Of a stretch of DNA of 41,435 bases, positions 16-15,475 are shown in pieces. The notes beneath the pieces were generated by a model. That model saw only the letters and a program-made list of their open reading frames with translations. It ran no database searches and was not told where the DNA came from. The stretch is from the IMG/VR virus record IMGVR_UViG_3300028920_000141, positions 1-41,435 of that record. One strand, given 5' to 3'. Numbering within the stretch: position 1 is the stretch's first letter; each line of letters opens with the position of its first letter. Origin of the DNA: a virus. The translations under genes were made by a program, and so were the position numbers.

Positions 16-148
16 AGAAGTTAATACCATCTTAATACCGAAAGAGGGGGTCGCAAGATCCCCTCTCTTTCTATCTGTAGTATTATTATTTGTAAACTAC
101 ACTCAGATGATCACAGTACCCTCTTGTGGTATTAAGATTGTATTAACA
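16..148. repeat. Control element copy 1: inverted arms of phased TTAATAC sites around an AT-rich core
   Basis: Two arms face each other. The left arm (20-48) has TTAATAC at 21-27 and 32-38, an 11-bp period, followed by CCGAAAGAGGG. The right arm (116-147), read on the other strand, has TTAATAC twice with the same 11-bp period followed by AAGAGGGTAC. Between them is an AT-rich stretch with the core at 81-108 (TATTATTTGTAAACTACACT and onward). The whole unit recurs in reverse orientation at 15337-15475. The phased direct repeats look like a protein-binding array, either a replication origin or an operator. The function is inferred; the repeat structure is seen directly. Confidence 0.8.
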
Positions 149-224
149 ACTCCCAGAACTAGCCGCCACCACATACTCTATATCCCCGTATATCAATGGG
201 TTATAACTCGGGTGAATGAAAACA

Positions 225-253
225 TTGACTTTCCCCGTGTTCGTGTGTATATT
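225..253 (+). promoter_or_regulatory. Early promoter, sigma70/SigA type
   Basis: TTGACT at 225-230, a 17-bp spacer, then TATATT at 248-253. This is close to consensus and faces the early genes. The expected start of transcription is near 260. Confidence 0.75.
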
Positions 254-263
254 CTGTAGTGAC

Positions 264-281
264 GGTCGGGGGGTCCCGACC
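264..281 (+). promoter_or_regulatory. Leader hairpin directly after the early transcription start
   Basis: GGTCGGG (264-270), loop GGGT, CCCGACC (275-281): a perfect 7-bp stem at the predicted 5' end of the transcript. A related stem follows the promoter at 16.95 kb. It could stabilise the mRNA 5' end or bind a regulator. There is no U-run, so it is not a classical terminator. Confidence 0.6.
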
Positions 282-309
282 ACCTACCACAAACGAAGGG
301 GTGCCACCC

Positions 310-456
310 ATGAACGAATCGCTGTACGACTACCTCTCGTACGTGCCTGACGAGAACCCCGACGACCCGTCACTCGAAGTGACAGTCGCCGGCCAGTTCT
401 CGCGCGAGCGTGACGACGAGGTGTCTGATGTACAGTCGCTGGCGGAGGGGGCATAG
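310..456 (+). CDS. Small acidic hypothetical protein (48 aa)
   Basis: First gene behind the early promoter. The ATG at 310 follows a GAAGGGG ribosome binding site, and the stop directly abuts the next start at 457. The protein is short and strongly acidic (MNESLYDYLSYVPDENPDDP, then DD/EE-rich), with no signal peptide or membrane segment. I do not recognise it. First-transcribed small acidic proteins in phages are often host-takeover or DNA-mimic factors, but nothing here proves that role. Confidence 0.6.
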   Translation: MNESLYDYLSYVPDENPDDPSLEVTVAGQFSRERDDEVSDVQSLAEGA

Positions 457-1239
457 ATGCCCGGAAAGAAACGCACAGCGACCACACCGACCATCGTCGA
501 GGTCAGCGAGAAAGACATCACTCGCTACCCTCGCAAGTTCTTCCCCCGGTACTGGGAGTACTCGAGGAGTATGCGCGAGGCTCGTAGTTCGGGGGTGAAG
601 TATGACCTGACCGAAGTCGCCTTCCAGCGCGTGTTCGGTCGGGCCGTTCCAGATGGTCTACACCCGAACCACGCAGAGGTCATCGCGCGGTACGGGCTGA
701 TGCAACATGATGCCGATCTGTACAACGTCTGTGACTTGGGTGAGCAGTTCAAGCGTCGGTATGCCGCGGCGATGAAACTGGCAGATGGGCTCGATGACTT
801 CAACGGCATGACACGTGTACCTATTACCATACATATACCCGCCGACGATGAGTTGGCAGAACCAGAGGAGGGCGAGATGGCCGCCAAAAAGAAAACCACC
901 ACCACCACCACGAAGAAGGCTACGGCGAAGAAGAAGGCTCCGGCGAAGAAGAAGGTCGTCGCCAAGAAGGAGAAGAAGATCGGTGCCACGAGCCGCGTGT
1001 GTGAGCTTCTGTGTGAGCGGGCGCACACCGACGAGGAGATCATCAAGATCATCGAGAAGGAGTACCCCGACCGCAACGAGAAGCAGATCAAGATGTACCT
1101 GTCGTGTCAGCGTGGTGACATCAACTCAGGTCGCAAGCCGATATGGACCGGGCTGGCGAAGGCTGACGAGAACCCGATCGTACGTCTGTACCGCGATGCC
1201 AAGGGTAAGGTGACGACAGAGAAATCCGCCGCGGCGTAG
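457..1239 (+). CDS. Hypothetical protein with histone H1-like lysine-rich linker (260 aa)
   Basis: Residues 1-140 form a globular region I do not recognise, ending in an acidic stretch. Residues 141-175 are a low-complexity basic segment (AAKKKTTTTTTKKATAKKK, then PAKKK repeats) like the tail of histone H1 or bacterial Hc1 proteins. Residues 176-230 look like a small helical or winged-helix DNA-binding domain (TDEEIIKIIEKEYP). The start at 457 directly follows the previous stop. An internal ATG at 877 (residue 141), with a GAGGAGGG ribosome binding site at 865-872, could give a separate basic 120-residue protein. DNA binding is inferred from composition. Confidence 0.75.
   Translation: MPGKKRTATTPTIVEVSEKDITRYPRKFFPRYWEYSRSMREARSSGVKYDLTEVAFQRVFGRAVPDGLHPNHAEVIARYGLMQHDADLYNVCDLGEQFKRRYAAAMKLADGLDDFNGMTRVPITIHIPADDELAEPEEGEMAAKKKTTTTTTKKATAKKKAPAKKKVVAKKEKKIGATSRVCELLCERAHTDEEIIKIIEKEYPDRNEKQIKMYLSCQRGDINSGRKPIWTGLAKADENPIVRLYRDAKGKVTTEKSAAA
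877..1239 (+). CDS. Possible internal in-frame start: basic H1-like protein (120 aa)
   Basis: Inside the 457-1239 gene, ATG at 877 follows GAGGAGGG (865-872) by 4 bases and begins exactly at the lysine/threonine-rich segment. Independent initiation would release the basic tail plus the C-terminal helical domain as its own DNA-binding protein. This is an alternative product rather than a separate gene, and it is unproven. Confidence 0.35.
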   Translation: MAAKKKTTTTTTKKATAKKKAPAKKKVVAKKEKKIGATSRVCELLCERAHTDEEIIKIIEKEYPDRNEKQIKMYLSCQRGDINSGRKPIWTGLAKADENPIVRLYRDAKGKVTTEKSAAA

Positions 1240-1265
1240 GTGGCACCCCGACCCGCAGCGGTGAA

Positions 1266-1294
1266 GGGCATCCCGGTTTAGCGCCGGGGTGCCC
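1266..1294 (+). terminator. Strong intergenic hairpin
   Basis: GGGCATCCCGG (1266-1276) pairs with CCGGGGTGCCC (1284-1294) through 11 bp with one G-U pair and a 7-base loop. No U-run follows. It may act as a partial terminator, an mRNA processing site or a stabiliser between the H1-like gene and the helicase gene. Confidence 0.5.
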
Positions 1295-1318
1295 GAACTA
1301 CAAAACGGAGACTCGCTA

Positions 1319-2698
1319 ATGCTACGACTTCGACCATACCAACGAGACGCGCTCAAGTTCTCCCTGGCACGGCAGTTCTCAGCCCTATACATCGACATGC
1401 GACTTGGCAAGACACGGGTCGCCATTCGTAGGGTCAAGGTCAGTCGTGCCTCGTTCATACTGGTGGCGGCGCCGTACTCCGCGCTCAGTGGGTGGGCGGA
1501 CCAACTGGCGCAGGAGGGGGAGCGGGCGGTGTTCAGTCTGGTGGGGACTCGCACCGCTCGTCTCTCTCTGTTACAGGAGGCGTTTAAACAGGCGAGCGAG
1601 GTACCGTCACGTGGTAGGGTCTGGTGTCTGATCAACAAAGAGGGTCATCGTGTGATCAGAGAACTAGCCAACTCCCACTTCGATGCGGTCATCATCGACG
1701 AGAGTACCTTCATTAAGAACCCCCGCGCAGACGTGACGAAGTATTACACCCAGAACTTCCGCGAGACGATACTCCGACTCGTCCTGACAGGTACCCCAGC
1801 GCCAGAGCACCCGCTCGAGTACCTGTGTCAGCTGATGTTCCTCGACCCGTCACTTCTTCCGGGCAACTACTACGAGACGCGTATGGCGTGGTTCTCTCTA
1901 CCCAAGGACCGACCCGACTCGCACGTGTGGTTCCTGACCCGACAGGGCAAGAGGAGACTTGCGGCCGTACTCGAGCGTGTCGCCTTCTTCCTGTCACGTG
2001 ATGACGTGAACCTGGGAGGCGAGAAGTTTTACCAGACCCGCAAGGTGCGACTCTGCTCGAAGGCACGCAAGGCGTACCAGACAGTCGAGGACGAGTTCAT
2101 CCTCAGTATAGACGACCTCAACGAGTCAACCATCTGGGCGACCCAGCAGTTCATCTGGATGCGCCGGCTGACGGGTGGTTCGGTACCCGTCGAACACGAC
2201 GACCCGATACCCGTTGACGATGCGAAGGTCAGGGCACTCGCGGAACTGGTGACGGGTGAACTCGCGGGTCAACGTCTCGTGGTGTGGGCGGTGTTCCACA
2301 CCGAACTCGACTACATATACGACCGACTCAGGAAGCAGGGAGTCGAGAGCGCAATCATCAGTGGTGACGTACCACCACCCCAGCGCGAGTGGGCTCGTGA
2401 GCAGTTCAACGCCGGCAAGATCCGGGTGCTCATCTGTCAGCCGGAGGTGTTTAAACATGGTGTCGATCTGGGTGAGGCCGACACGATGGTGTACTACTCG
2501 ACACCCTGCGGACTAGAGACACGACTCCAGAGTGAGGATCGCATCGTTCGTGTCGGCAAAGAGAAGTCGCTGTTGATCATCGACCTCGTTGCTGAGGACA
2601 CGATCGATGAGGACATACTGACGAGTCTGCGTGGCAAAGAGCGGCGCAGTCAGATGATGAAACGTATAGTCGAGGGGGCGAAGGTCAGACATGGTTAG
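1319..2698 (+). CDS. SNF2-family DNA helicase/translocase (459 aa)
   Basis: This is a superfamily 2 ATPase. Motif I is DMRLGKT (residues 26-32), a slightly degenerate Walker A. Motif II is DEST (127-130), motif III is LTGTP (156-160), and motif VI near the C-terminus is SEDRIVRVGKEKS, the QxxDRxxRxGQ signature of SNF2 proteins. Phage members of this compact form are thought to act in replication or recombination by remodelling protein-DNA complexes. ATG 1319 has GGAG 8 bases upstream; the in-frame GTG at 1289 lies inside the hairpin and is unlikely. The gene carries two GTTTAAAC sites (1582, 2449). It overlaps the next gene by 8 bases. Confidence 0.9.
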   Translation: MLRLRPYQRDALKFSLARQFSALYIDMRLGKTRVAIRRVKVSRASFILVAAPYSALSGWADQLAQEGERAVFSLVGTRTARLSLLQEAFKQASEVPSRGRVWCLINKEGHRVIRELANSHFDAVIIDESTFIKNPRADVTKYYTQNFRETILRLVLTGTPAPEHPLEYLCQLMFLDPSLLPGNYYETRMAWFSLPKDRPDSHVWFLTRQGKRRLAAVLERVAFFLSRDDVNLGGEKFYQTRKVRLCSKARKAYQTVEDEFILSIDDLNESTIWATQQFIWMRRLTGGSVPVEHDDPIPVDDAKVRALAELVTGELAGQRLVVWAVFHTELDYIYDRLRKQGVESAIISGDVPPPQREWAREQFNAGKIRVLICQPEVFKHGVDLGEADTMVYYSTPCGLETRLQSEDRIVRVGKEKSLLIIDLVAEDTIDEDILTSLRGKERRSQMMKRIVEGAKVRHG

Positions 2699-3137
2699 TA
2701 TCGACCCGGGACTGAACACTGGTATCGCCGTGTGGAGTCGCAACGGTCGGTTGAAGTTCACCGACCTCTGCAAGTGTCCGAAGATCACCGACGACTGCGT
2801 ACGTGTCGGTGTGCTGTGTTCGTGGGTGTACGCCCGGCTCCTGGCTCTGCCAGATGGTCCGGTGTACATCGAGGGTGTGAGGTCGTTTGCGTCAGCCCGT
2901 TCATGGGCGGCCAGTACACGTGGAAACCTATCGCTACTCGCCTACATCGTCGGGGGGTACATCAGAGTATGTCAGGAGTTAGGAAGAGCAGTATACGTCA
3001 TAGACCCGCAGTGGAAGGGTCAGCTGACAGAGAAGGCGCTCGAGTTGAGAATCAGACGGGCGGGCATCGCACAGCCGCTGGGCGACCATGTACGCGAGGC
3101 AGTCGGTCTTGGTCTGAGTGTGTTGCAGAGGCTATAG
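2691..3137 (+). CDS. RuvC-like Holliday junction resolvase (148 aa)
   Basis: RNase H-fold nuclease. SIDPGLNTG at the N-terminus supplies the first catalytic Asp (D5), VYIEGV supplies E61, and the C-terminal DHVREAVGLGL supplies D132 and a further acidic residue. Length and motif order fit phage RuvC/RusA-replacing resolvases that cut branched DNA before packaging. The start overlaps the helicase gene. The end leads straight into the uracil-DNA glycosylase in another frame. Confidence 0.8.
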   Translation: MVSIDPGLNTGIAVWSRNGRLKFTDLCKCPKITDDCVRVGVLCSWVYARLLALPDGPVYIEGVRSFASARSWAASTRGNLSLLAYIVGGYIRVCQELGRAVYVIDPQWKGQLTEKALELRIRRAGIAQPLGDHVREAVGLGLSVLQRL

Positions 3138-3628
3138 GATGTACACGTTGTCGCCTTCACTCGACGCGCCGCAATGTGGTACTGGGCAGAGGGGAGTTAC
3201 CCTGTGATGTCTTATTCGTGGGCGAGGGGCCGGGACAGGTGGAGGACACATTGGGCGAGGCGTTTGTCGGGCCGAGCGGCAGGCTCCTCGACCAGATGCT
3301 CCGAGAGGCAGAGTGCCGACTCAGGTGCGCCTTCACAAACGTGGTTCTCTGTCACCCTACAGATCATCCGCGCGGCGACAACCGTACTCCTTACCCTGAC
3401 GAGGTACTCGCTTGCCTGCCTCACGTCCTCGAAGTCGTACGGGCGGCGAGTCCGAGACTTGTGGTCTTTGTGGGTGACGTGTCTGAGCGTTACCTACAGC
3501 GTCATATCGATGGTGTTCGTATGCTTCATCCTGCGGCTCTACTACGCAAAGGTGGGCGCGCGGCGCCACACTACGATAGAGTAGTCACTCAACTATGGAG
3601 GTGGTTCAATGTCGATCTGGCCCGATGA
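2969..3628 (+). CDS. Family 4 (4Fe-4S) uracil-DNA glycosylase; start uncertain
   Basis: The homologous part begins near 3122 (VAEAIGCTRCRL). It has the cluster cysteines CTRC, then C in VVLCHP and C in ACLPH. Motif A is GEGPGQVEDTLGEAFVG and motif B is HPAAL. These are hallmarks of type 4 and 5 UDGs, which remove uracil from DNA. No ATG, GTG or TTG lies in frame near the expected N-terminus. The nearest are GTG 3011 and ATG 2969, which would add about 40-50 residues read through the RuvC gene in a second frame. Initiation at a non-canonical codon, or a -1 frameshift from the RuvC-like gene, is possible. The gene overlaps the next one by 20 bases. Confidence 0.75.
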   Translation: MSGVRKSSIRHRPAVEGSADREGARVENQTGGHRTAAGRPCTRGSRSWSECVAEAIGCTRCRLHSTRRNVVLGRGELPCDVLFVGEGPGQVEDTLGEAFVGPSGRLLDQMLREAECRLRCAFTNVVLCHPTDHPRGDNRTPYPDEVLACLPHVLEVVRAASPRLVVFVGDVSERYLQRHIDGVRMLHPAALLRKGGRAAPHYDRVVTQLWRWFNVDLAR

Positions 3629-4520
3629 GTACAGCATGAGCAGTGACGGGGTGACACAGTCACTCCTTGCGGCGGCGGCGGTCTGCCCAGTGAAGGCGGC
3701 GCTGATGGCCGACAGGTGGTACAGTCCCAGTATCGTCAAGAGCACCGCGTTCGGGTCACTGTGTCACGACATCCTCGAGACGGTCTACGGTGACGTGTAC
3801 ACGGGGACGTACGAGGACATCCGCGATGCGGTCAACACGGCTATCGACGCCCACCTGACGAAGAACCGGGACGAACTCTACGAGGTGCTTGGTGCTGAGG
3901 AGTGGGAGAGTGTGGCGACGAAGGCGTACGATGTGATGGTGGCGTACATCGACCACTATCTTGACGACTGGCAGAAGAACAAATACACAGGGCTCGAGCA
4001 CCTTGCTGAGTGTCGGTTCGGTGACTGGCGTCTGCGGGGTAAGCTCGACGGTATCTTCACCGCCAAGGACGGCACACGGTGGTTGCTCGAACACAAGACC
4101 ATGAGCCGTATCGATGAGGACTCGTTGTGGCTCCGGGTGTCGTTCGATTCCCAGGTCCAGTTCTACCTGCTCATGTACGAACTCGCAACGGGCGAACGGC
4201 TCGACGGGGTGATCTACAATGTGATCAGGAACCCGTCACACAAGAAGCGCGAGTCGTTGCAGGCAGACCTTGCCAAACGTCCCGAGCACTTCTTCATACG
4301 GGGCGAGGTGAAGTTCACCGACTCAGACCGGGAACGGTTTAAACACGACCTCGAAGCACAGCTGATGGAACTCGACATGCGCGTGAGTGGTCTGCTCCCC
4401 ACCTGGAGAAACACGACCGCCTGCGACAAGCCGTATCGGTGTACGTTCCTTGGGTGGTGTGCCACCAACAACATAGAAGGGCTGAGACAGAATGACACGC
4501 TGTTTCCAGAGTTGCAGTAG
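3609..4520 (+). CDS. Cas4/RecB-like PD-(D/E)XK nuclease with Fe-S cysteines (303 aa)
   Basis: Nuclease core: H53 (GSLCHDILE), D147 (KLDGIF), E161-x-K163 (LLEHKT) and QVQFY (182-186), the RecB-type order. C26 at the N-terminus and C272, C278 and C284 near the C-terminus match the split cysteine pattern that holds a 4Fe-4S cluster in Cas4/AddB nucleases. The likely role is 5'-end resection of phage or host DNA, working with the ATPase encoded next. No cas1/cas2 or CRISPR repeats are nearby, so it is a phage recombination exonuclease rather than a CRISPR part. Confidence 0.85.
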   Translation: MSIWPDEYSMSSDGVTQSLLAAAAVCPVKAALMADRWYSPSIVKSTAFGSLCHDILETVYGDVYTGTYEDIRDAVNTAIDAHLTKNRDELYEVLGAEEWESVATKAYDVMVAYIDHYLDDWQKNKYTGLEHLAECRFGDWRLRGKLDGIFTAKDGTRWLLEHKTMSRIDEDSLWLRVSFDSQVQFYLLMYELATGERLDGVIYNVIRNPSHKKRESLQADLAKRPEHFFIRGEVKFTDSDRERFKHDLEAQLMELDMRVSGLLPTWRNTTACDKPYRCTFLGWCATNNIEGLRQNDTLFPELQ

Positions 4521-4671
4521 TCGGCTAGGTGATACTCAATCATGGGGTACACAGACCCGCGTATACACGCTACGCGGCTGGGTACTGTGTGACACCTGGA
4601 AGGAGGTCGATGAGGAACTGCGGCGCATAGATTCACTCTCAATCAAGGAGGTGTGTGATGGGCGTGGTTAG
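4492..4671 (+). CDS. Small hypothetical protein (59 aa)
   Basis: Short open frame bridging the nuclease and ATPase genes, beginning inside the end of the nuclease gene (ATG 4492) and ending 14 bases inside the ATPase gene. The N-terminus holds clustered cysteines (MTRCFQSCSS) and the C-terminal half is charged and helical (TWKEVDEELRRIDSLSIKEV). It fills an otherwise empty 130-base gap. Function unknown. Coding status is likely but unproven. Confidence 0.45.
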   Translation: MTRCFQSCSSRLGDTQSWGTQTRVYTLRGWVLCDTWKEVDEELRRIDSLSIKEVCDGRG

Positions 4672-5542
4672 GAAGAAGGTAGCAGGGCGCCCGGCTACGA
4701 AAGGGGCTCCGGCTCCGGATCGGTTGAAGTTGCCAACGGTGAAGTCGAAACCACCGAACGACCTCGCGCAGTACCGTGTGTTCGTGTACGGCGAGGGCGG
4801 CGTGGGGAAGTCGTCACTGATGGCTCGGTTCGGCGGCAAGACGGACACGCTGTTCTTCTCGTTCGAGTTGGCGAACACGGGGCTCGAGATCTACCGGACG
4901 CCCCTGCTCACCGACTGGGAGATGACACGCAAGTTCGTGACCATGTTGAAAGAGGGCGACCACAACTACGGTGCCGTGTGTTTCGACACAGGCACCCCAG
5001 CGTACCAGCGTTGTCTGGAGTGGGTGTGTAAGCAGAGGGGTGTGAAGCACCCCCATGACGCCAACGACTTCGGGGCGACCTGGAAGGCTGTGACCGACGA
5101 GTACCGACAGGTGCAGTTCGACCTCGCGTCAGCCGGGCTCGTGGTTTGTGTCGTCGCTCACGACAAGCTCACCGAAATCGAGACGCGCACGGGTCAGAAG
5201 ATCTGGCGCATCGAGCCGAACATGGGCGGTCAGTGTCTGCAGTACTTCCGAGAGAACTCAGACGTGATCGGGTACTACCACATGGTAGGTCGGCACAGGT
5301 ACCTGCAGATCATCGGTGACGACTACGTGATGGCCAAGGCGAATCCTGAAAACCATTTCCGCACCCCGAAGGGAGAACGGGTTGTGCGCATTCCGATGGG
5401 TGACAGCGCCGATGAGGCTTATGCGAATCTCATCGCGGCGTTCAACAACAAGCAGACAGAGACATACGCCGATGTCATCGCCAACAAGGCCTTGACAGAG
5501 GAAACCGCGGCGAAGGGTCGCCGCAAACACTCAAAGCGATAA
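4658..5542 (+). CDS. Sak4-like RecA-fold ATPase, single-strand annealing recombinase (294 aa)
   Basis: A basic, disordered N-terminus (1-35) precedes a RecA-type core. Walker A is GEGGVGKS (45-52) and Walker B is GAVCFD (D110). Size and context (DUF669-like protein immediately downstream, Cas4-like nuclease upstream) match phage Sak4 proteins, which promote annealing with an SSB-like partner. ATG 4658 has AAGGAGGT five bases upstream. The C-terminus is basic (KGRRKHSKR). Confidence 0.8.
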   Translation: MGVVRKKVAGRPATKGAPAPDRLKLPTVKSKPPNDLAQYRVFVYGEGGVGKSSLMARFGGKTDTLFFSFELANTGLEIYRTPLLTDWEMTRKFVTMLKEGDHNYGAVCFDTGTPAYQRCLEWVCKQRGVKHPHDANDFGATWKAVTDEYRQVQFDLASAGLVVCVVAHDKLTEIETRTGQKIWRIEPNMGGQCLQYFRENSDVIGYYHMVGRHRYLQIIGDDYVMAKANPENHFRTPKGERVVRIPMGDSADEAYANLIAAFNNKQTETYADVIANKALTEETAAKGRRKHSKR

Positions 5543-5554
5543 GGAGGGCTGTAG

Positions 5555-6424
5555 ATGGACCCCGCAATGAAAGAGAGAGTCGATGCGGCTCGCAAGGCGT
5601 CAGAGCGAGCGAAGGACATGGACGGTGGTGAGTTCCCGCCCGACCCGCCCCCTGGGATTTACGAGGGGCGACTGCAGACCTGCAAGGTGTTCGTGTCTGC
5701 GCAGGCCGGCCGACCCATGTTGCAGAGGTGCTTCGTGATCGAAGGTGGCGAGAGCCACGGTATGCAGGCACGTGACTTCCTCAACCTCGAGCAGGACTTC
5801 CTGATCGCTCGCATGCGGGCGTTCGTTGAGTCGTGCGGGTACGAGATGCCGGACGACCTGTTCGACTACGAGGCGTGCGAGCGCGAGGACACGTGGGTGT
5901 TCGTACCCGACCTCGTGGACACCATGTCGGCGATCGAGGGCGAGAACCGGGAGTACAAGTTCGAGTTCAAACAGCGGCCCGGGAGAGACGGTCGTGTGTT
6001 CAACTCGATCAGCGTCATCGAGGTGGGTCCGGTCGAGGACGGCGCCCCGAAGAAGTCGGCGAAGAAAGAGGAGCCGGCTGATGAGGAGCCCGCCGACGAG
6101 ACACCGAGCGAGCCGGAAGATGGTGACGACGACGAGGTGCTTCGCACCGAACTGCTCGCGTTCTGTGTGGACGAGGGCAACGTCGAGGGCGTCGAGGACG
6201 GTATGTCACTCGATGATGTGAAGGAGAAGATCGGGGAGTACGTGTTCTGGCCCGACACCATCGACGAGGACACACTGCACGCCGTTGACGGGCTCGAGGA
6301 CGAGTCGCCCAGCGATGGTGTCAGTGCTGACGCGATCGACCTGCTCATCCGCGCTGGTCTGGAGGACAGTGTGGTGAAGGTCGAGGCACCGAAGCGCAAG
6401 CCTCGTTCGAGGAAGAAGAAGTAG
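5555..6424 (+). CDS. DUF669-like ssDNA-binding partner of the ATPase (289 aa)
   Basis: The N-terminal domain (about 20-155) has the DUF669 pattern: PPGIYEGRLQTCKVF, then GGESHGMQARDFLNL and an OB-fold-like strand set. A long acidic, Pro/Glu-rich linker (170-200) follows. A second small acidic region (200-270) leads to a basic tail (KRKPRSRKKK). Genes of this type usually sit beside Sak4 ATPases and are thought to bind single-stranded DNA. The acidic linker plus charged tail resembles SSB tails that recruit partners. AAGGAGGG lies just upstream of ATG 5555. Confidence 0.65.
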   Translation: MDPAMKERVDAARKASERAKDMDGGEFPPDPPPGIYEGRLQTCKVFVSAQAGRPMLQRCFVIEGGESHGMQARDFLNLEQDFLIARMRAFVESCGYEMPDDLFDYEACEREDTWVFVPDLVDTMSAIEGENREYKFEFKQRPGRDGRVFNSISVIEVGPVEDGAPKKSAKKEEPADEEPADETPSEPEDGDDDEVLRTELLAFCVDEGNVEGVEDGMSLDDVKEKIGEYVFWPDTIDEDTLHAVDGLEDESPSDGVSADAIDLLIRAGLEDSVVKVEAPKRKPRSRKKK

Positions 6425-6425
6425 C

Positions 6426-6477
6426 GGTGGGCCGCATGGGGGAGGGGGCTGTCGTCCCCTCTCCTGTCTAGCCCACC
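6426..6477 (+). terminator. Nested intergenic hairpin
   Basis: GGTGGGC (6426-6432) pairs with GCCCACC (6471-6477). Inside, GGAGGGG (6441-6447) pairs with CCCCTCTCC (6456-6464) with a bulge. There is no U-run. Likely a terminator or mRNA processing structure between the recombination genes and the peptidase gene. Confidence 0.5.
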
Positions 6478-6494
6478 TCAACCAGGAGAGAGAG

Positions 6495-6794
6495 ATGGAG
6501 ACACTGTTTAAACAGGGCGTGTGCGGTGAACTCGTACCAGAGGCGGCAGAGGGTCTGCGCCAGTGCGCGAAGTTCTGGGCGCTCGAAGATCAGGATCAGA
6601 TGGTCGTCACCTCGATACGTGAGGGCACACACGGCTACGCCTCGTTCCACCCCAGTGGTCGCGCGTTCGACCTTCGGTTCCCGGTGAACGTGAACATCAA
6701 GCAGTTCGTTGAGCGGCTCAAGAAACATCTTGGCGCCGACTTCGATGTGGTTCTGGAGAGCACGCACATACACGTTGAGTACGACCCGAAGTAG
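6495..6794 (+). CDS. Small M15/VanY-like (Hedgehog/DD-peptidase fold) protein (99 aa)
   Basis: Zinc-site signatures of the M15 fold are visible: HPSGRAFDLRF (H-x-x-G-R-A-x-D) and, near the C-terminus, THIHVEYD (H-x-H). M15 enzymes usually cut D-Ala-containing peptidoglycan peptides. At 99 residues this is a minimal domain with no signal peptide or cell-wall-binding domain, and it lies among replication genes instead of beside a holin. It may be a lysis enzyme placed early or have another role. ATG 6495 follows AGGAGAGAGAG; codons 4-6 contain a GTTTAAAC site. Confidence 0.65.
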   Translation: METLFKQGVCGELVPEAAEGLRQCAKFWALEDQDQMVVTSIREGTHGYASFHPSGRAFDLRFPVNVNIKQFVERLKKHLGADFDVVLESTHIHVEYDPK

Positions 6795-6800
6795 CACACG

Positions 6801-6906: not shown

Positions 6907-7200
6907 ATGAAGGGCAAAGACAAACTGCTGGCGGCGATTGAGTCAATGACTATCGCCCTCATGGAGGAGAAGGGGTGGAACAGGCGCCGTGCGAGACGAG
7001 CGGCAGAGGCGAAGGTCGGGCGACACCTACGACGAGCCCTGCGCACCGCGAAGCCCGGCGCCCCAGTGATTCAGACCCTAGGCAAGATGCGGCTCCTCGA
7101 GTTGGGTGAGACGGGCTGGCACTGGGTTCTCACACGTGGTGTATACCTTCTCGTGGGCCTCGCAATTGGTGGTCTGCTCGTCGCCGTGGGGGTCCTATGA
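6907..7200 (+). CDS. Small basic protein with C-terminal membrane segment (97 aa)
   Basis: ATG 6907 has AGGAGA upstream. An earlier in-frame ATG at 6829 lies inside the RNA structure and lacks a ribosome binding site. The N-terminal two thirds is basic and helical (NRRRARRAAEAKVGRHLRRA). The last 20 residues are hydrophobic (GVYLLVGLAIGGLLVAVGVL), giving one membrane anchor. The stop overlaps the polymerase start (ATGA). Function unknown; a membrane tether for the replication complex is a guess from position only. Confidence 0.65.
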   Translation: MKGKDKLLAAIESMTIALMEEKGWNRRRARRAAEAKVGRHLRRALRTAKPGAPVIQTLGKMRLLELGETGWHWVLTRGVYLLVGLAIGGLLVAVGVL

Positions 7201-8966
7201 GGGTCGGTAGGGTCGAAGCCTTTGACGTTGAAACGGACGCGCGTATCGGGGTGGGTCCTCGACCGTATGCTGGCGACAAGATCTTCGCATGGCAGACGTG
7301 TGACACAGAGGGGAACAAGCGCGCGTTCCGTATCGACCCGAACAAGAAGGACCCGCGGCTCCAGGCGTGGCTCGACGACCCGTCGATCGAGAAGGTCTGC
7401 CACAATCTCAAGTTCGAGTTGACGATGCTCCGGGTGTGTGGGTACACGTGGCACCCCGACACCGTGTGGCATGACACGATGATCATGTCACAGCTGATCG
7501 ACAACCTCAGACACACGCACGCCCTGGGAGAACTCGCATACGCCTTCACCGCTCGAAGTGACAACCCGTACGACCTCGACCTTGACCACGAGGTACAGAG
7601 ACTCGCTCGCACGATGGGTGGGTACCACCGTGTACCACATGACCTCATGCGAGCGTACCAGGAGTATGACGTTGAGCGGACGATCGTCCTGTTCATGGTG
7701 TTCGCCCCTGACATAACTGGTCAGCTGTACGACGACTACCGCAACGAGATCAACCTCATCGTGTACCCGACCATCGACATGGAGGCGCGGGGCATCATGG
7801 TTGACCCGAAGCGCACAGCCGACCTGCTCGAGTGGTTAGAGACTGAGTGTATACGGGCCGAGCGTGAACTGCTCGACGTGACCGGGACAGAGATCAACCT
7901 GCGGTCCCCCGATCAACTGGCGTGGCTGTTGTACAGTCACCTGCGCCTGCCGATACTGGGGTACACCAGCACCCGCAAACCGTCAACGAAGGACGAGGTG
8001 ATAGCCCGTTTAAACCACCCCGCCGTGGACATCATCAAACGCCACCGCGCGTACACGAAGGGGTACGGTATCATCACGGGGTACCTCAACCTCATGGACA
8101 GCGACAACATCATACACCCGAACATTCAAACGAACCGCGCGGTGACAGGTCGAGAGGCCTGCTCCGAACCGAACCTGCAGAACGTCAGCAAGTCGGACAT
8201 CGTGTTCGATGAGGAGACGGGCCGGCAGAAGAACTACCCAGTGCCGGCGCGTCGATGCTTTCGACCTCGCCCGGGTCATATCCTCATGGTGTGTGATCAG
8301 GCGGGTATCGAGTTGCGTCTGCTCATCGAGGCGGCGGGCTGTCAGAAGATGATGGACTTGATGCGAGACGGACACCACCCCCATGTCGTCGCCAACCAAC
8401 ACTTCTGGAAGGGTACCGCCAGACAGTTCACGACGAAGAAGGGGGACGAGGCTCGATACGGTACTGGTAAGAACGGCCACTTCTGTATCTGGTACGGTGG
8501 CTCTGCGGAGAAGTTTGCACAGACCATCGACCTTCCCGTGAGTCAGGCGATGGTCGGCTACTCGTCGTACTGTCGTGAGTTCCCCGAAGCACCCGCACTG
8601 AACCGTGAGGGCATACACAAGGTGAAGCGAGACGGTCACAAGGTCGTCACCCCGTTCGGTCGCCCGCTTCGGATCCAGAGAGACGAGGTGTATGCGTGGC
8701 TCAACTACTACATCCAGGGAACAGCCGCAGGCATCATCAAGCGGGGCCAGACCCGGCTCAAACCGATGGACGGTGTGTACCCAGTACTGACCGTTCACGA
8801 TGACATCATGTTCGAGATCGAACGACCGTACGTGAAGTACCTGCCAGACATCGTTGAGCAGATACGGCGCGCGATGGTAGACATAGACGAGATCAAAGTA
8901 CCGCTCGAGATCGAACCAAAGATCTCTGCGACAACCTGGGACGCTGTGAAGGAGGTCAATGTATGA
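7197..8966 (+). CDS. Family A DNA polymerase with 3'-5' exonuclease (589 aa)
   Basis: Exonuclease motifs: D10-x-E12 (AFDVETDA), N70 (CHNLKFE) and Y154QEYD158. Polymerase motif A is CDQAGIELR (366-374), where most family members have DYSQIELR. Motif B has R420, K425, F429 and Y433-G434 (GKNGHFCIWYGG). Motif C is VHDD (533-536). There is no 5' nuclease domain, as in T7-type replicative polymerases. Phe at the O-helix selectivity position predicts normal discrimination against dideoxynucleotides. A GTTTAAAC site lies at 8008. It starts within the previous stop and is translationally coupled. Confidence 0.95.
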   Translation: MRVGRVEAFDVETDARIGVGPRPYAGDKIFAWQTCDTEGNKRAFRIDPNKKDPRLQAWLDDPSIEKVCHNLKFELTMLRVCGYTWHPDTVWHDTMIMSQLIDNLRHTHALGELAYAFTARSDNPYDLDLDHEVQRLARTMGGYHRVPHDLMRAYQEYDVERTIVLFMVFAPDITGQLYDDYRNEINLIVYPTIDMEARGIMVDPKRTADLLEWLETECIRAERELLDVTGTEINLRSPDQLAWLLYSHLRLPILGYTSTRKPSTKDEVIARLNHPAVDIIKRHRAYTKGYGIITGYLNLMDSDNIIHPNIQTNRAVTGREACSEPNLQNVSKSDIVFDEETGRQKNYPVPARRCFRPRPGHILMVCDQAGIELRLLIEAAGCQKMMDLMRDGHHPHVVANQHFWKGTARQFTTKKGDEARYGTGKNGHFCIWYGGSAEKFAQTIDLPVSQAMVGYSSYCREFPEAPALNREGIHKVKRDGHKVVTPFGRPLRIQRDEVYAWLNYYIQGTAAGIIKRGQTRLKPMDGVYPVLTVHDDIMFEIERPYVKYLPDIVEQIRRAMVDIDEIKVPLEIEPKISATTWDAVKEVNV

Positions 8967-9193
8967 GAATGAAACCGGGGAGGCGAGACCTGATCCTGCA
9001 GGTCTGCTCGACCACGCGTATCAAACACGAGCCGGCGCAGGACAGATTCACTCGACGCCAACTCGAGCAACTGGCACTATGGTGTAGTAAGGCCGTGCAA
9101 TTCAACCGACACATAGACAGGACGGTACGCGATGGCGAAGAAGGCACAGGTGACAAACCAACCCCCGCTGGCGTTCCGTCAGCACGGGGTTGA
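8963..9193 (+). CDS. Small basic hypothetical protein (76 aa)
   Basis: ATG 8963 overlaps the polymerase stop and has GGAGGT 6 bases upstream. It runs 62 bases into the primase gene. The protein is Arg/Gln-rich and helical (RRQLEQLALWCSKAVQFNRH). A rival start at 8959 in another frame gives only 42 residues. Not recognised. Its position between polymerase and primase suggests a replication accessory role, which is inference. Confidence 0.5.
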   Translation: MRMKPGRRDLILQVCSTTRIKHEPAQDRFTRRQLEQLALWCSKAVQFNRHIDRTVRDGEEGTGDKPTPAGVPSARG

Positions 9194-11168
9194 GTTCACA
9201 CGACGAGCCTCGACTCAGTGGGTCGGCACCTGTCCGTTCTGCGGTAAGGCGAAGCACCTATACGTCAACGCAACCTCGCTGAAGTGGGACTGCAAGTCGT
9301 GTCATAAACAGGGAACGATCGAGACGTTTCTCCACCGTATACACGAGATGAGTGTGGCGGCGATGAACCGCCGCCGGGCTGTCGCCCTGTCTCGTGATAG
9401 AGGTCTGCCGACCTCTGCTCTACGCAAAGCCGGGTGGGGGTACAATGAACTGTCCGACCGATACGTGATGCCCGTGTGGTATGCTGACGGTGGCGGTGGG
9501 GTCTGGGACCTCCGTCACTACAAACTCGCCAGCGGTCGGGTGAACAGTACCGCAGGGCTACACATCGGTCTGGCGGGGTGGGAGGAACTCGACGGGTGGA
9601 AGGGTGAGGTGTGGTTGTGCGAGGGTGAGTGGGACTGGATCGCCCTGCGCACCATCATCAAGGAGTCGGGTCGAGACGCGCTCGCCCTGTGTTGCCCGGG
9701 AGCGGGGTCGTTTAAACGGGAGTGGGTTCAGATGTTCGACGGTCACGATGTGGTCGTGGCGTTCGACAACGACGACCCGGGACGTGATGGGGCGAAACGT
9801 CTCGCCGGCCTGCTCGAGGATACCGTCAAGGTGATGAGGTTCGTACGGTGGCCGGACGCTCGCCCGAAGGGGTGGGACGTTCGTGACGTGTACATCGCCT
9901 CGCACCGTAGTGGGTCACAGGCGATGCGAGAACTCGACGGGTGTCTCTCACCAGTGCCGCCGGGACTCGACGTGACCGCCGACCCTGGGAAGGGCTCCAA
10001 GTACGATGGTCCGGGTGTCGAAGCGACTGAGGTGTACAGCAGGTACCGTCGATGGTTCCACCTGCCCGATAACATGCTCGACGTACTCGACATCGTGTAC
10101 GGTTCGGTCATCGCGAACCGTATCGTGGGCGACCCGTTGTGGACGTTCATCATCGCTCCTCCTGGTGGGTTCAAGACGGTACCGATCATGGCACTCGACG
10201 GGTGCAAGAACATCGAGACGACCGACACCCTGACACCTGCCGGGCTCATCAGTGGGGCGACTATGGCAGGAGGTGTTGACCCGTCTCTGCTCAAACGACT
10301 ACACCGCAAGATGCTCCTCGTCAAAGACTTCACGACCGTCCTCAACCTACCCGCCCAGACACGCGAGGAGGTGTTTGGTATCTTGCGCGCGGCGTACGAT
10401 GGTAAGGCCGAGCGGGTACTGGGGAACATCGGCAAGAAAACGATCAAGGCTACGTTCGGTGTACTGGCCGCAGTGACCCCAGCCATCGAGCAGTACTACG
10501 ACCAACACGTACAACTGGGCGAGCGGTTCCTTGGGTTCCGTACACCCATCCCGTCGAGCATGAAAGATCAGCGCGAGTTCCTCAAGCGGGCTCACGGCAA
10601 CGTGGGGAAAGAGGACGAGATCGGTGCCGACTTGCGTGAGGTGTCAGCTGAGATCCTCAACTATGACTACGGCCCCGCACCTGACGTACCGGGAGACATC
10701 GCCGAGCGACTGATTGCGATGGCACTGGTGATCGGTCGGCTTCGTGGTGTGGTGACACGTGAACGGTACAGTGCCCAGCGTGAGGTGACACACATACCGT
10801 ACACCGAACTGCCGACCCGACTCATCAAACAGATCACGAAAGCGGCGATGGGCGTCACCCAGTTCAGACGCAAGACGGTCGTGACACACTCCGAGCTGTC
10901 GGTCGTGAAGCGACTGGCAGAGGGGTCAGTCCCTACGGGGGTGTACCGTGCCGTGTGTAGTATGTATCGAGGTGGACGTGAGCGTGCGTGGACATCTGCC
11001 GAACTCGCAGACGTGATCGGTCTACCTGAGTGGCCGACCGTCAAGCGGCTGTTGCAGAACCTCGTACTGCTCGGAGCGGCGAAGGTCGTCACGGTCGGCC
11101 GACAGCATTGCTGGACGCTGGCTGGTGACATGGCAGAGGTCCTTGAACTATCAGGGATGATGGACTAA
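9132..11168 (+). CDS. Primase-helicase (678 aa)
   Basis: The N-terminal zinc finger C34PFC37...C54KSC57 binds the template. A TOPRIM catalytic domain follows, with E164 (LCEGEWD) and DNDD (212-215). The AAA+ region begins near 335 with an atypical Walker A, APPGGFKT (342-349), in which Phe replaces the usual Gly before Lys, and D399 (LLVKDFT). The C-terminal 100 residues look like a winged helix (SAELADVIGLPEWPTVKRLL). The layout matches fused phage primase-helicases acting at the fork with the upstream polymerase. A GTTTAAAC site lies at 9710. Confidence 0.9.
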   Translation: MAKKAQVTNQPPLAFRQHGVEFTRRASTQWVGTCPFCGKAKHLYVNATSLKWDCKSCHKQGTIETFLHRIHEMSVAAMNRRRAVALSRDRGLPTSALRKAGWGYNELSDRYVMPVWYADGGGGVWDLRHYKLASGRVNSTAGLHIGLAGWEELDGWKGEVWLCEGEWDWIALRTIIKESGRDALALCCPGAGSFKREWVQMFDGHDVVVAFDNDDPGRDGAKRLAGLLEDTVKVMRFVRWPDARPKGWDVRDVYIASHRSGSQAMRELDGCLSPVPPGLDVTADPGKGSKYDGPGVEATEVYSRYRRWFHLPDNMLDVLDIVYGSVIANRIVGDPLWTFIIAPPGGFKTVPIMALDGCKNIETTDTLTPAGLISGATMAGGVDPSLLKRLHRKMLLVKDFTTVLNLPAQTREEVFGILRAAYDGKAERVLGNIGKKTIKATFGVLAAVTPAIEQYYDQHVQLGERFLGFRTPIPSSMKDQREFLKRAHGNVGKEDEIGADLREVSAEILNYDYGPAPDVPGDIAERLIAMALVIGRLRGVVTRERYSAQREVTHIPYTELPTRLIKQITKAAMGVTQFRRKTVVTHSELSVVKRLAEGSVPTGVYRAVCSMYRGGRERAWTSAELADVIGLPEWPTVKRLLQNLVLLGAAKVVTVGRQHCWTLAGDMAEVLELSGMMD

Positions 11169-11314
11169 TGAGACTACACCCGACCCAATGGCTACCGACC
11201 ATATTCATCGTTGAGTACATCGCGTGCGCGATCGTGTATGCGAGTTACCATGACTGGCGGCGTGTCGCGTACTGGCTCGCGGCGGCCGTCCTCAATGCGT
11301 CGATCACATTCTAA
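11168..11314 (+). CDS. Small two-helix membrane protein (48 aa)
   Basis: ATG 11168 overlaps the primase stop (TAATG). Two hydrophobic stretches (IFIVEYIACAIVYASY and VAYWLAAAVLNASITF) flank a short basic turn (HDWRR), giving a likely hairpin in the inner membrane. It has no resemblance to a known holin beyond size. Function unknown. Confidence 0.55.
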   Translation: MRLHPTQWLPTIFIVEYIACAIVYASYHDWRRVAYWLAAAVLNASITF

Positions 11315-11330
11315 CCTAGGAGGTAGAGCA

Positions 11331-11969
11331 GTGCCTGCGAAGAAGAAGAAGGAGCAGACAGTCAAGACAGGTGGTGCGTTCCCCGTCAATCGGGACTCAC
11401 AGTACTATCTGATACCACACCCCCTGCAGGCGTTGGCGGTACCCATCTCGAGCGTCAAGCTCTGGAAGAAGAACCCCCGCGCGAACGACGAGGCCGCGAA
11501 GAAGTTGGCGACCATCATCGAGGAGCATGGATTCCGGATCCCGGTGGTCATCGACTCGAACGGTATCATCATGGCGGGCAACACGAGGTACAAGGCCGCA
11601 AAACTTCTGGGCATGAAGAAGATACCCGCAGTCAAGCAGGAGTTCGTGAGTGAGGCACAGGCGACTGCGTTCGCCCTCGCCGACAACAAGGCGAGCGAGT
11701 GGTCCACCTGGGACGACGACCTTCTCGCCGACCTGTTCGGTGCCAAGTCGTTCGAGGGGTACAAGGGTCGCACGGGGTTCAGTGACGCCGAGCGCCGGGC
11801 TATCACGATGGAACCGGACATCGACCGCATCAACAAGATCAAGTCGAAGGAGTCTGGTATCAAGGGGAAGATGATCGTGCTCGTGATGGACATGGCACAG
11901 CGCGACGAGATCAAGGAGATGTTGAAGCTATGGGTGGAATCAAAAGGCCTAAACGTCGAGATCAAGTAA
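11331..11969 (+). CDS. ParB/Srx-fold domain protein (212 aa)
   Basis: GTG 11331 follows AGGAGGT. After a basic N-terminus (MPAKKKKEQ), residues about 35-105 have the ParB N-terminal fold: SVKLWKKNPR, then IIMAGNTRYKAAKLLG, matching the conserved GxxRxxA box. Phage proteins of this type are variously nucleases, CTP-dependent switches or companions of DNA-modifying enzymes. It overlaps the dpdA-like gene by 40 bases and belongs to the same transcription unit, suggesting a role in targeting or checking DNA modification. That link is inference. Confidence 0.75.
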   Translation: MPAKKKKEQTVKTGGAFPVNRDSQYYLIPHPLQALAVPISSVKLWKKNPRANDEAAKKLATIIEEHGFRIPVVIDSNGIIMAGNTRYKAAKLLGMKKIPAVKQEFVSEAQATAFALADNKASEWSTWDDDLLADLFGAKSFEGYKGRTGFSDAERRAITMEPDIDRINKIKSKESGIKGKMIVLVMDMAQRDEIKEMLKLWVESKGLNVEIK

Positions 11970-12835
11970 AGTGGCGAGTACCACTCCTGATCTCGTACGC
12001 GTACTGGAATAAGAACACGGCGCGCGACCTGTTGGCGTGGGGTCCCGAGCACTTCCGTCTGTTCCTCGACAGCGGGGCGTTCACCGCACACAAGCAGGGG
12101 AAGCAGGTAGACTTCGACGAGTACTGCGCGTTCGTGAAGTCACCGCCAGTGCCCGTCGAGAGATACTTCATGCTCGACGTGATCGGGGACCCGACCGCCA
12201 CGAAGAAGAACCTGGACCGGATGTTGCAACGGGGTTTAAACCCCATCCCCGTGTTCACCCGTGGTGAAGATGTCAAGACGCTCGACGAGTTCTATGCGGT
12301 GTCTGACCTCGTGGGTCTGGGCGGAGTGGCTGGTACTCCCGGTGCGGCGGCTTACGTCAAGTGGTTCGAGGAGGACGTACGTCAGGGCCGGCCGATACAC
12401 TGGCTGGGGTTCGCCAACCGTGACTTCGTGTTGTACTTCAAGCCGACATCGTTCGACTCGACCTCGTGGGTCAACGGCTGTCGGTACGGGTTCATTCAGT
12501 TCTTCCACGATGGGTGGAAGAAGGCAGAGCGCAAGGACATCCTCGCCGGCAAGTTCCGCCGGCAGGTCACAGAGTTGGGCTTCGACTACGGTGAGTTGAA
12601 GAAGGAGGTCAACTGGCGCCGACAGCAGAGGCTCTGCTCGACAGGTCAGATCACCGCGGCGAGTTGGTTGAGGTGGGCCAAGCGGCTCGAGACGATACCA
12701 TCGACGGCGGTCGCGGCGATACACCCTGACCTTGACATACCGAACATTACCGTGGCGTACGCCGCCTGCGAGAGTGGGTCGGCCGACTCGTCACACAACA
12801 ACCTGCAACGCGCATACGAAAGGGGTGACACGTGA
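11930..12835 (+). CDS. dpdA: DpdA-like DNA 7-deazaguanine transglycosylase (301 aa)
   Basis: A TIM-barrel relative of tRNA-guanine transglycosylase that exchanges guanine in DNA for a 7-deazaguanine base. Visible landmarks are FLDSGAF (D47), MLDVIGD (D83), GLGGVAGTPG (129-138) and FDSTSWVNGCRYG (D176, the likely nucleophile). Immediate neighbours are queC, queD, queE and folE, which make preQ0. No QueF or amidotransferase-fused QueC is present, so preQ0 itself is the expected inserted base. A GTTTAAAC site is at 12234. AAGGAG lies upstream of ATG 11930. Confidence 0.85.
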   Translation: MGGIKRPKRRDQVKWRVPLLISYAYWNKNTARDLLAWGPEHFRLFLDSGAFTAHKQGKQVDFDEYCAFVKSPPVPVERYFMLDVIGDPTATKKNLDRMLQRGLNPIPVFTRGEDVKTLDEFYAVSDLVGLGGVAGTPGAAAYVKWFEEDVRQGRPIHWLGFANRDFVLYFKPTSFDSTSWVNGCRYGFIQFFHDGWKKAERKDILAGKFRRQVTELGFDYGELKKEVNWRRQQRLCSTGQITAASWLRWAKRLETIPSTAVAAIHPDLDIPNITVAYAACESGSADSSHNNLQRAYERGDT

Positions 12836-13500
12836 AGGTTCTTCATGTACTCAGCGGCGGGCTCGACAGCACGGTGCTGTTGGCAGACAACGTAGCACAG
12901 CACGGGGCTGGTAACGTGGTGTGCGTCAACTTCTCGTACGGGTCCAAACACAACGACCGTGAGCGGGCCGCCGCCATACTCGTGACCCAGCATTACAAGG
13001 TCACACTCGTCAAGGTCGAACTGCACCTGCGTGGGTTCAAGAGCACACTGATGTACGAGGGCGGTGAGATACCCGAAGGTCACTATGAGGACGAGACGAT
13101 GCGCTCGACGGTCGTACCCTTCCGCAACGGTATCATGTTGTCGTACGCGGTGGGCATGGCGGAGTCGATGGGGCTCGAACTCGTGACGATCGGTGCGCAC
13201 TCAGGCGATCACGCAATCTACCCCGACTGTACCCCTGAGTTCATACACGCGATGGATTCTGCCGCGGCCCTGGGAACGTACAAGTGTGTACACATCGTCG
13301 CCCCGTTCAGTGACATGGACAAGGCTGAGATCGTCAAGGCTGGGTTCGAGTTGAACGCACCTATGCACCTGACGTACACCTGCTACAACGGTGGGCGAAA
13401 GCACTGCGGTCGGTGTGGGGCGTGTGTCGAACGGGCCGAAGCGTTTACCTTGGCGGGGGTCGAGGACCCGACCCAGTGGGAGGAACCATGTTCCGAGTGA
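12832..13500 (+). CDS. queC: QueC, 7-cyano-7-deazaguanine (preQ0) synthase (222 aa)
   Basis: ATP-dependent conversion of CDG (7-carboxy-7-deazaguanine) to preQ0. The PP-loop is SGGLDS (8-13). A C-terminal zinc site is formed by C184, C192, C195 and C198 (CGRCGACVERAEAF). Standard family length; no fused amidotransferase domain. GTG 12832 overlaps the dpdA stop (GTGA) and its end overlaps queD, so translation is coupled. Confidence 0.95.
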   Translation: MKVLHVLSGGLDSTVLLADNVAQHGAGNVVCVNFSYGSKHNDRERAAAILVTQHYKVTLVKVELHLRGFKSTLMYEGGEIPEGHYEDETMRSTVVPFRNGIMLSYAVGMAESMGLELVTIGAHSGDHAIYPDCTPEFIHAMDSAAALGTYKCVHIVAPFSDMDKAEIVKAGFELNAPMHLTYTCYNGGRKHCGRCGACVERAEAFTLAGVEDPTQWEEPCSE

Positions 13501-13823
13501 CGAAGAGGATGGAAGTCGCCGGCGCTCATCATCTCAACCTGCCGTACGAAAGCCCGTGCACCTACCCGCACGGCCACAACTGGGTCATCGAGATCACGAT
13601 GGAGTGTGACGACGATAGTCTGAGCGACTACGGTATGGTGTATGACTTCGCCCTCATCAAGCGAGAGATACACGGGCGACTCGACCACCGGACGATCAAC
13701 GAGTACGTCGAACAGCCCACCGCCGAGAACATCGCCAAGTGGATCTGCGACCTACTGGGTGAGGCATGCACGCAGGTGATGGTACAAGAGAGTGAGGGCA
13801 ACCGCGCATGGTATATAAGGTAA
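13488..13823 (+). CDS. queD: QueD, 6-carboxy-5,6,7,8-tetrahydropterin synthase (111 aa)
   Basis: Makes the tetrahydropterin precursor of CDG from the FolE product. Zinc ligands are H14, H28 and H30 (AGAHH, then PHGHNW), with catalytic C24 (SPCTYPHGH). LDHRTIN and PTAENIAKWI are typical of the family. ATG 13488 has GGGAGGA just upstream. It overlaps queC and queE. Confidence 0.95.
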   Translation: MFRVTKRMEVAGAHHLNLPYESPCTYPHGHNWVIEITMECDDDSLSDYGMVYDFALIKREIHGRLDHRTINEYVEQPTAENIAKWICDLLGEACTQVMVQESEGNRAWYIR

Positions 13824-14392
13824 ACGAGGTCTTTCGGTCGGTGCAGGGAGAGGGCATCGACACGGGGAGGTCGGCCGTGTTCATACGGCTGGCGGGGTGC
13901 AGTGTGTGGTGTGACTTCTGTGACACCGACCACACCTGCAAGTTCAAAGCGAAGGAGCAGGAGTTGATCAGAATGGTGACTGACCTGACCACCGCGCAGG
14001 GGGAACTCGTCGTCATCACTGGTGGCGAACCGCTCGAGCAGAACTGCCGACCTCTGTACACGGCGCTCTCCTCCCTACGGTATGACGTGACGTTCGAGAC
14101 GAGTGGCACGGTACGGTTCCCGGCGTGGTGTCCGACGACCCGTTTAAACGTCTCGCCGAAAGGGAACTGGCACGTGTACGACGACACGTGTGTGCGGTCG
14201 CTGAAACTGTTGTACCCGTTCCAAGAGAGGGCGACACCCTGGGACGTGCGACACTTCGACGCTCTATGGTATGGTATTCAACCCATCGACGGTGTGGAGG
14301 GCTCGTTCGATGGGGCTCTGACTGAGGTCAGACGATACGGCCCTCCTTGGCGTGTGTCAGTACAGACGCACAAACTCGTGGGGGTACGATGA
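13808..14392 (+). CDS. queE: QueE, 7-carboxy-7-deazaguanine synthase (194 aa)
   Basis: Radical SAM enzyme that contracts the pterin ring to CDG. C31-x3-C35-x2-C38 (CSVWCDFCD) binds the 4Fe-4S cluster, TGGEPL is the SAM-binding strand, and the N-terminal SVQGEG motif is characteristic of QueE. A GTTTAAAC site is at 14142 in the Leu-Asn frame. It starts inside queD and ends overlapping the folE fusion gene. Confidence 0.95.
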
Positions 14393-15267
14393 TGTCGGAG
14401 ATGCTAAAGAACTCAGAGGTGATGAAGATGGTCGTGAAGATGGCGAGCGACCACGACCTGCCGACCGGGGCGAGGATCTACGGGGTACCCCGCGGTGGTG
14501 TACCCGTGGCGTACCTTCTCGCCCCAGTGCTTGCCGGCACCGTGGTTGACCGACCTGAGGACGCCACCATCATCGTGGACGACCTCATCGACTCAGGTGC
14601 GACGATGACGTGGTACCTCGACAACTACCCGGACACACCCTTCGTCGCCCTGCTCGACAAACGCAACCAGGAGCATCAGACGTGGTACGTGTTTCCCTGG
14701 GAGGGTACGGTCGAGGGGTCTGCTGAGGACATCCCCACACGGCTCCTGCAGTACCTTGGCGAGGACGTGAGCCGTGACGGTCTGGTGGACACCCCCGCGC
14801 GGTTCCTCAAGGCGTGGGGTGAACTGACAGCCGGATACAAGGTAGACCCGAAGTCGTACCTGGAGCGGTCGTTCAGCAACGAGGCGGGGTACGACCAGAT
14901 GGTGATACTGCGAGACATCGAAGTGTGTTCGGTGTGCGAGCACCACCTGCTACCGTTCGTCGGCAAGGCACACGTGGCCTACATCCCCAGCGCCGATGGG
15001 CGGGTGGTCGGTATCTCGAAGCTGGCCCGTCTGGTCGATGGGTACGCCCGACGACTACAGATACAGGAACGGTTGACCCAGGAGGTCGCCGGAGCCCTGG
15101 AGGAATGCTTGAACCCGAAGGGTGTTGCGGTGTTCATCGAGGCACAGCACCTGTGTATGCGAGCCCGTGGTGTACGTGAGCGTGACAGTGTGATGGTCAC
15201 GTCAGCCATCCGCGGGGCGTTCGTCAACGAGCCGGCCCGGCTCGAGTTCCTTCTGTTGCGACAGTAG
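14389..15267 (+). CDS. folE: Phosphoribosyltransferase-GTP cyclohydrolase I fusion (292 aa)
   Basis: Residues 1-110 are a type I phosphoribosyltransferase domain with the PRPP loop [12 protein letters not shown] (61-72) and YGVPRGG (31-37). Residues 115-292 are FolE, which opens GTP to dihydroneopterin triphosphate, the first step towards preQ0. Zinc ligands are C183 and H185-H186 (CEHHLLPF) and C256 ([12 protein letters not shown]). FolE is usually encoded alone. The fused transferase could recycle a purine base to nucleotide for the pathway; that is inference. Last gene of the early unit. Confidence 0.9.
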
Positions 15268-15279
15268 GGGAGGGGTAGC

Positions 15280-15300
15280 GGGGGGGCTAATCGCCCCCTC
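15280..15300 (+). terminator. Hairpin after the early unit
   Basis: GGGGGGG (15280-15286) pairs with CCCCCTC (15294-15300) including one G-U, with loop CTAATCG. No U-run follows. It is the last element before the second control element and probably ends or slows early transcription. Confidence 0.55.
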
Positions 15301-15336
15301 GTGAAAACAATGACTTACGAGAAGAGCGCCCCGCTT

Positions 15337-15475
15337 GTTAATACGAAGTTAATACCGAAAGAGGGTACTGGTGACTACTATCTGAGTGTAGTTTACAAAT
15401 AATAATTATACATATACACACAGACAGACATACGGCAGGAGCTAGTACCCTCTTTGGGTATTAAGGTTATATTAA
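15337..15475. repeat. Control element copy 2, reverse orientation to the copy at the window start
   Basis: The left arm (15337-15368) has TTAATAC at 15338 and 15349 followed by CCGAAAGAGGGTAC. The right arm (15445-15475), on the other strand, has TTAATAC and a one-mismatch copy, again 11 bp apart, with AAGAGGGTAC. The core 15380-15408 (ATCTGAGTGTAGTTTACAAA and onward) is the reverse complement of the core at 81-108. Together the two elements bracket the 0.3-15.3 kb early region. The 229-base gap they occupy has no convincing gene. Confidence 0.8.

Follow-up and report, generated by a model that had tools for sequence, protein, structure and literature searches.

Two related elements bracket the early region of the virus record IMGVR_UViG_3300028920_000141 (IMG/VR), which we analysed over its whole length as one window of 41,435 bases, beginning at record base 1 and with the last open frame running off the end. 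On balance, their sequence and their comparison across phages suggest that these elements are paired replication-initiation sites, either origins or accessory origins, of an exchangeable phage replication module, similar to oriL and oriR of Bacillus phage SPP1. The anatomy found in the window, and also in the related records G002, G003, G009, and G019, is of the SPP1 type, with two related cis sites that each contain repeats and an adenine-thymine-rich (AT-rich) region. The parts of the two elements in the window are as follows:

20-147, plus strand: left element, consisting of an arm, an AT-rich core, and a facing arm
20-48, plus strand: left arm 1, GTTAATACCATCTTAATACCGAAAGAGGG, with two TTAATAC sites spaced 11 bp
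64-108, plus strand: left core, reading forward and including TTATTATTTGTAAA at 83-96, common to relative G002
119-147, minus strand: left arm 2, facing, GTTAATACAATCTTAATACCACAAGAGGG
15337-15480, minus strand: right element, an inverted copy of the left element
15337-15365, plus strand: right arm 3, GTTAATACGAAGTTAATACCGAAAGAGGG
15380-15424, minus strand: right core, the left core sequence inverted, with TTTACAAATAATAA at 15392-15405
15452-15480, minus strand: right arm 4, facing, with a degenerate outer site, TTAATAT, and an inner site, TTAATAC

Anatomy of the elements in the window

An earlier note on this DNA had described two near-reverse-complementary elements, each with facing arms, and we confirmed this arrangement with slightly revised borders, the right element reaching 15480 and thus extending five bases beyond the end at 15475 given there. 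Its description of two TTAATAC sites per arm, 11 bp apart, held for seven of the eight sites but not for the outer site of arm 4. Each element measures ~130–145 bp. The arms are 90% complementary in the left element (20-48 and 119-147) and 80% complementary in the right element (15330-15369 and 15444-15483), and the two cores are 87% reverse-complementary to each other, with a local alignment score of 35 in inverted orientation vs. 11 in direct orientation (maximum of shuffled sequences, 15). All seven copies of TTAATAC in the 41,435 bases fall within the elements, where 0.59 copies would be expected in the window and at most 3 occurred in 100 shuffles. A search for further copies with up to 3 mismatches placed arms at exactly four positions, all of them in the elements. 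Scanning for facing, 11-bp-phased arms gave a positive result for the window in 3 registers and for 0 of 500 local shuffles; at period 11, only the window and G002 matched among ~170 loci. Among separate 100-bp sites of the window, the two richest in AT also lie within the elements (66–67% AT vs. ~41% background). The right element lies directly 3' of folE, and the next possible start codon follows about 14–17 bp on. A hairpin, AGAGGGGGTCGCAAGATCCCCTCT, with a T-rich tail was observed at 43-66, on the inner side of left arm 1, and none was seen in the right element.

Pairs of elements in related phages

Most of the records compared here are fragments. The four relatives encode the helicase-PolA-primase cassette at roughly 25–45% amino-acid identity, and each has a bracketing pair of elements, with borders drawn by eye from inverted-repeat output. 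G002 (46,822 bp) is syntenic with the window, its proteins being mostly 32–60% identical, and its pair at 34146-34278 and 1613-1757 carries the word TTATAC phased by 11 bp. The earlier note had looked to relatives of the same gene order as a check on the pair, and in G002 the pair is indeed present, on the same sides. The core sequence TTATTATTTGTAAA is identical in G002 and the window and has the same relative orientation, forward on the left and inverted on the right; this identical stretch spans at least 14 nt, despite ~32–60% protein identity. A third copy of TTATTTGTAAA lies in G002 (L094:4358-4374), ~150 bp past the left-element copy and without arms. The other three relatives were found via a scan with the primase alignment and have PolA matches of E 1e-90 or better, with pairs at 66414-66534 and 34873-35013 in G003, 25209-25352 and 43368-43530 in G009, and 59078-59190 and 19672-19788 in G019, where the right element follows folE, as in the window. 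The G019 contig ends overlap (98% over 173 bp), and its map therefore probably closes.

Across these pairs, ~110–165 bp per element, several features are constant: each phage has two sites, the arms face each other around an AT-rich core, the position is intergenic or nearly intergenic, and a replication cassette is enclosed between the elements, which in G002 and G019 becomes apparent only after joining the contig ends. The word itself, the 11-bp phasing, and the orientation of the core are variable. Arm words vary between phages but agree between the two sites of each phage, which would fit a single initiator. Cores are inverted in G002, as in the window, direct in G003 (score 24 vs. 11) and G009 (48 vs. 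21), and weakly inverted in G019 (18 vs. 16). Ranked by AT content among separate 100-bp sites, the elements also hold the first two places in G002 and G003, and places 1 and 3 in G019. In G015, whose primase has 28% identity, the stretches 9063-9222 and 27298-27446 together contain four similar arms, and judging by these it probably also carries an element pair, with cores assignable to neither orientation. Single facing-arm candidates in G004, G005, G008, and G012 were left out of the pair count. The exact arm pattern had no match in all of IMG/VR, and an extended core pattern matched there only G002 (twice) and one contig of 31% guanine-cytosine (GC), which encodes no homologous gene and was taken as a chance match. 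Relatives of FolE were likewise set aside as a source of elements, being mostly unrelated phages in which no facing-arm element was seen.

One phage, G001 (30,929 bp; L084, L087), provides the contrast on which our module-swap comparison rests. Its portal and neighbouring virion genes are 67–80% identical to those of the window (portal, 69%), while its early region, mainly on the opposite strand, is foreign. No elements were detected in G001, nor any match to the primase-helicase profile A4, which matches ten primase-bearing records including all element-bearing ones. Between G001 and the window, whole modules have been exchanged. Given that G001 shares the virion genes and has neither the primase nor the elements, the elements track the replication module; accompanying this module and missing when only virion genes are common, they are most simply explained as part of replication.

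Candidate initiator and comparison with known systems

The most likely binder of the elements is the protein encoded at 9132-11168, predicted to combine a Toprim primase, an MCM-fold helicase, and a winged helix. Its AlphaFold2 model has a mean predicted local distance difference test score (pLDDT) of 88, and residues ~281–607 match MCM helicases (Z ~20, 275–304 residues aligned, root-mean-square deviation 4–5 Å), which are the best solved matches of the helicase domain. Profile searches identified a C-terminal winged helix (E 1.2e-7 and 1.7e-6 to 2d1h). The origin-binding domain of phage P4 was not listed in the fold search, although such a domain may still be there. Primase, helicase, and C-terminal winged helix are thus part of one protein, as in P4 alpha, and the modelled domain layout is, by comparison, that of self-loading initiators. 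About 20 homologues of the primase-MCM fusion were found in uncultured phage contigs, and no full-length match in cultured phages.

Phage P4 has a second cis site, crr, and the helicase of its alpha protein belongs to superfamily 3 (SF3). The window resembles P4 in joining a Toprim primase, a helicase, and a C-terminal winged helix in a single protein and in having a second cis site elsewhere, and differs in a helicase domain whose best solved matches are MCM helicases and in arms and spacing unlike those of P4. In P4, the winged helix of alpha binds the origin repeats and the protein then unwinds and primes (PMC4234260). SPP1 has two AT-rich origins, oriL and oriR, 12–13 kb apart and both bound by one protein (PMC6316719, PMC3485210). 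The window shares with SPP1 two origin-type sites per genome with repeats and an AT-rich unwinding element, recognized here from the letters only. Direct repeats are described in SPP1, whereas the arms of the window face each other, and SPP1 gp38 loads a separate DnaB-type helicase, whereas in the candidate of the window, primase and MCM-fold helicase are fused. SaPI Rep and SCCmec Cch and Cch2 are also helicase-initiators; Cch is MCM-like, and the C-terminal domain of Cch2 binds short iterons (PMC7581432). In contrast to the window, these satellite or island origins adjoin the rep gene, and the description there includes no pair around an early region (PMC7581432); in SCCmec, moreover, the primase is a separate protein.

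If the elements are initiation sites, the arms would act as iterons for the phage initiator. The winged helix of the primase-helicase would read the 11-bp-phased word, the facing arms would seat two helicase rings head to head, and the AT-rich core enclosed by the rings would be melted and primed. Of the two sites, one may fire first, and the other may serve as an additional origin or as a barrier to forks, as has been proposed for oriR of SPP1; in that phage, the second site is proposed to stop forks and set off the change to concatemer synthesis (PMC3485210, PMC6316719). A bolder extension, possible but tentative, is that a self-loading Toprim primase-MCM fusion, two head-to-head rings, facing iterons, and two origins bracketing their own genes together form a viral equivalent of MCM double-hexamer loading that uses a single protein, with words changing per phage, in a module that is widespread and uncultured. 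The origins of most uncultured phages are unknown, and here comparison alone picks out a cis pair, per-phage words, and a candidate initiator. If true, the window would hold a minimal self-loading replicon whose primase and MCM helicase are one protein, and origins in related phages could be found via facing-arm pairs around the helicase-PolA-primase cassette.

Weighing of the alternatives

Several observations count against initiation at the elements. GC skew, a check proposed in the earlier note, has no switch at either element and is uninformative on where replication starts. Eight other primase-bearing records (G006, G007, G010, G011, G013, G014, G016, and G018) yielded no elements, though their contigs may be fragments or their words may have diverged too far. 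Clear 11-bp phasing is limited to the window, G002, and G009 and is absent in G019 and G015, and given that the arms in this comparison were picked after the sequences were seen, the cross-phage 11-bp statistic is descriptive. G009 is AT-rich overall, and its elements do not stand out by AT content. For most elements, a gene start follows within ~50 bp, a position that an operator would explain too, and the binder is one that we infer.

Given that many elements lie just upstream of genes, the main rival is that they are twin operators or promoter-proximal elements, bound by one phage regulator that controls the early operon on the left and the next operon on the right. Most elements are directly upstream of a co-directional gene, the left element of the window has a sigma-70-like site 78 bp downstream, 11-bp-phased words suit a helix-turn-helix regulator, and a word common within each phage fits one trans-acting protein. 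Still, a sigma-70 consensus scan, the only one made, found promoter-like sites close to the left element in both the window and G019 and none at the right element of either; in the window, none lies in or just after the right element, and elsewhere such sites do not occur consistently in or beside the elements. Core orientation is independent of gene direction, the cores being inverted in the window and G002 though both downstream operons run the same way, and a quasi-palindrome with a strongly conserved AT-rich core exceeds what an operator needs. We therefore consider the operator explanation unlikely, if worth keeping in view. The T7-type promoter idea, raised by the TAATAC in the word, led to a search for RNA-polymerase families, which gave no match, as did its control.

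Partition (centromere) or packaging sites appear improbable. A ParB_N-domain protein is encoded between the elements and has homologues in G003 and G019, and the C-terminal domain of the primase weakly resembles TubR-type winged helices, but the ParB_N gene was not detected in G009, which has elements. Two copies around replication genes do not suit a pac or cos site, and G001 has closely related portal-region genes without elements. Least probable, and very unlikely, is that the elements are site-specific recombination sites inverting the 15-kb early region, as one option of the earlier note had it. Their inverted orientation in the window and G002, and the inverted arms around an asymmetric core in each element, as in recombinase sites, would fit. 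However, G003 and G009 have the elements as direct repeats, and neither a tyrosine recombinase (PF00589) nor a serine recombinase of the resolvase family (PF00239) was detected in six records, which are possibly fragments, although the G019 ends overlap, while control genomes matched; inversion is unlikely for these two reasons. The window and G002 also agree in how the early region is oriented relative to the virion genes. Among the three options of the earlier note, twin origins are thus best supported, by the AT-richness of the cores, by facing arms that are conserved, and by the occurrence of the elements together with the replication module and primase-helicase in distant phages, while boundary operators fit less well and inversion is disfavoured.

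Genes of the early region and minor observations

The gene content between both elements agrees with the earlier note, which had them enclose the replication and DNA-modification genes:

225-253, plus strand: promoter-like site of the sigma-70 type, TTGACT-17-TATATT, lying outside the left element and probably an early promoter
457-1239, plus strand: lysine-rich protein with a small C-terminal domain, second candidate DNA binder
1289-2698, plus strand: SNF2-type helicase, which opens the conserved replication cassette
2699-5542, plus strand: cassette genes for UDG-family, PDDEXK nuclease, and AAA_24 ATPase proteins
7197-8966, plus strand: family A DNA polymerase
9132-11168, plus strand: zinc-ribbon/Toprim primase fused to an AAA+ domain of MCM fold, with a winged helix at the C-terminus, leading candidate element binder
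11930-15267, plus strand: 7-deazaguanine DNA-modification cassette, with DpdA-like, QueC, QueD (PTPS), QueE-like, and FolE proteins

In G002 and G009, and by eye in G019, homologues of the lysine-rich protein are encoded directly before the helicase. The DNA-modification cassette stops 69 bp short of the right element, and terminase and portal genes follow at 21.6–25 kb. No close relative was found among cultured phages: megablast of the first 25 kb gave no match to them, and the best matches of PolA, portal, primase, DpdA, and helicase to them were below 32% identity among the matches listed. A portal scan of genome contigs yielded no relative.

The FolE reading frame (14347-15267) has an extra N-terminal ~130 residues, phosphoribosyltransferase-like by eye, and some phage contigs match there too. 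Just 3' of the right element, the open reading frame 15947-16885 has homologues in G003 and G009; its true start may be internal, and its C-terminal part is sliding-clamp-like by eye. A 96-nt direct repeat (16896-16991 and 18539-18634; 77% identity) is AT-rich and has TATAAT-like sites, possibly representing middle promoters. A 43-nt direct repeat (19469-19511 and 19749-19791; 95% identity) contains a GGAGGGGCTTCGGCCCCTCC hairpin, and its copies are probably duplicated terminators.

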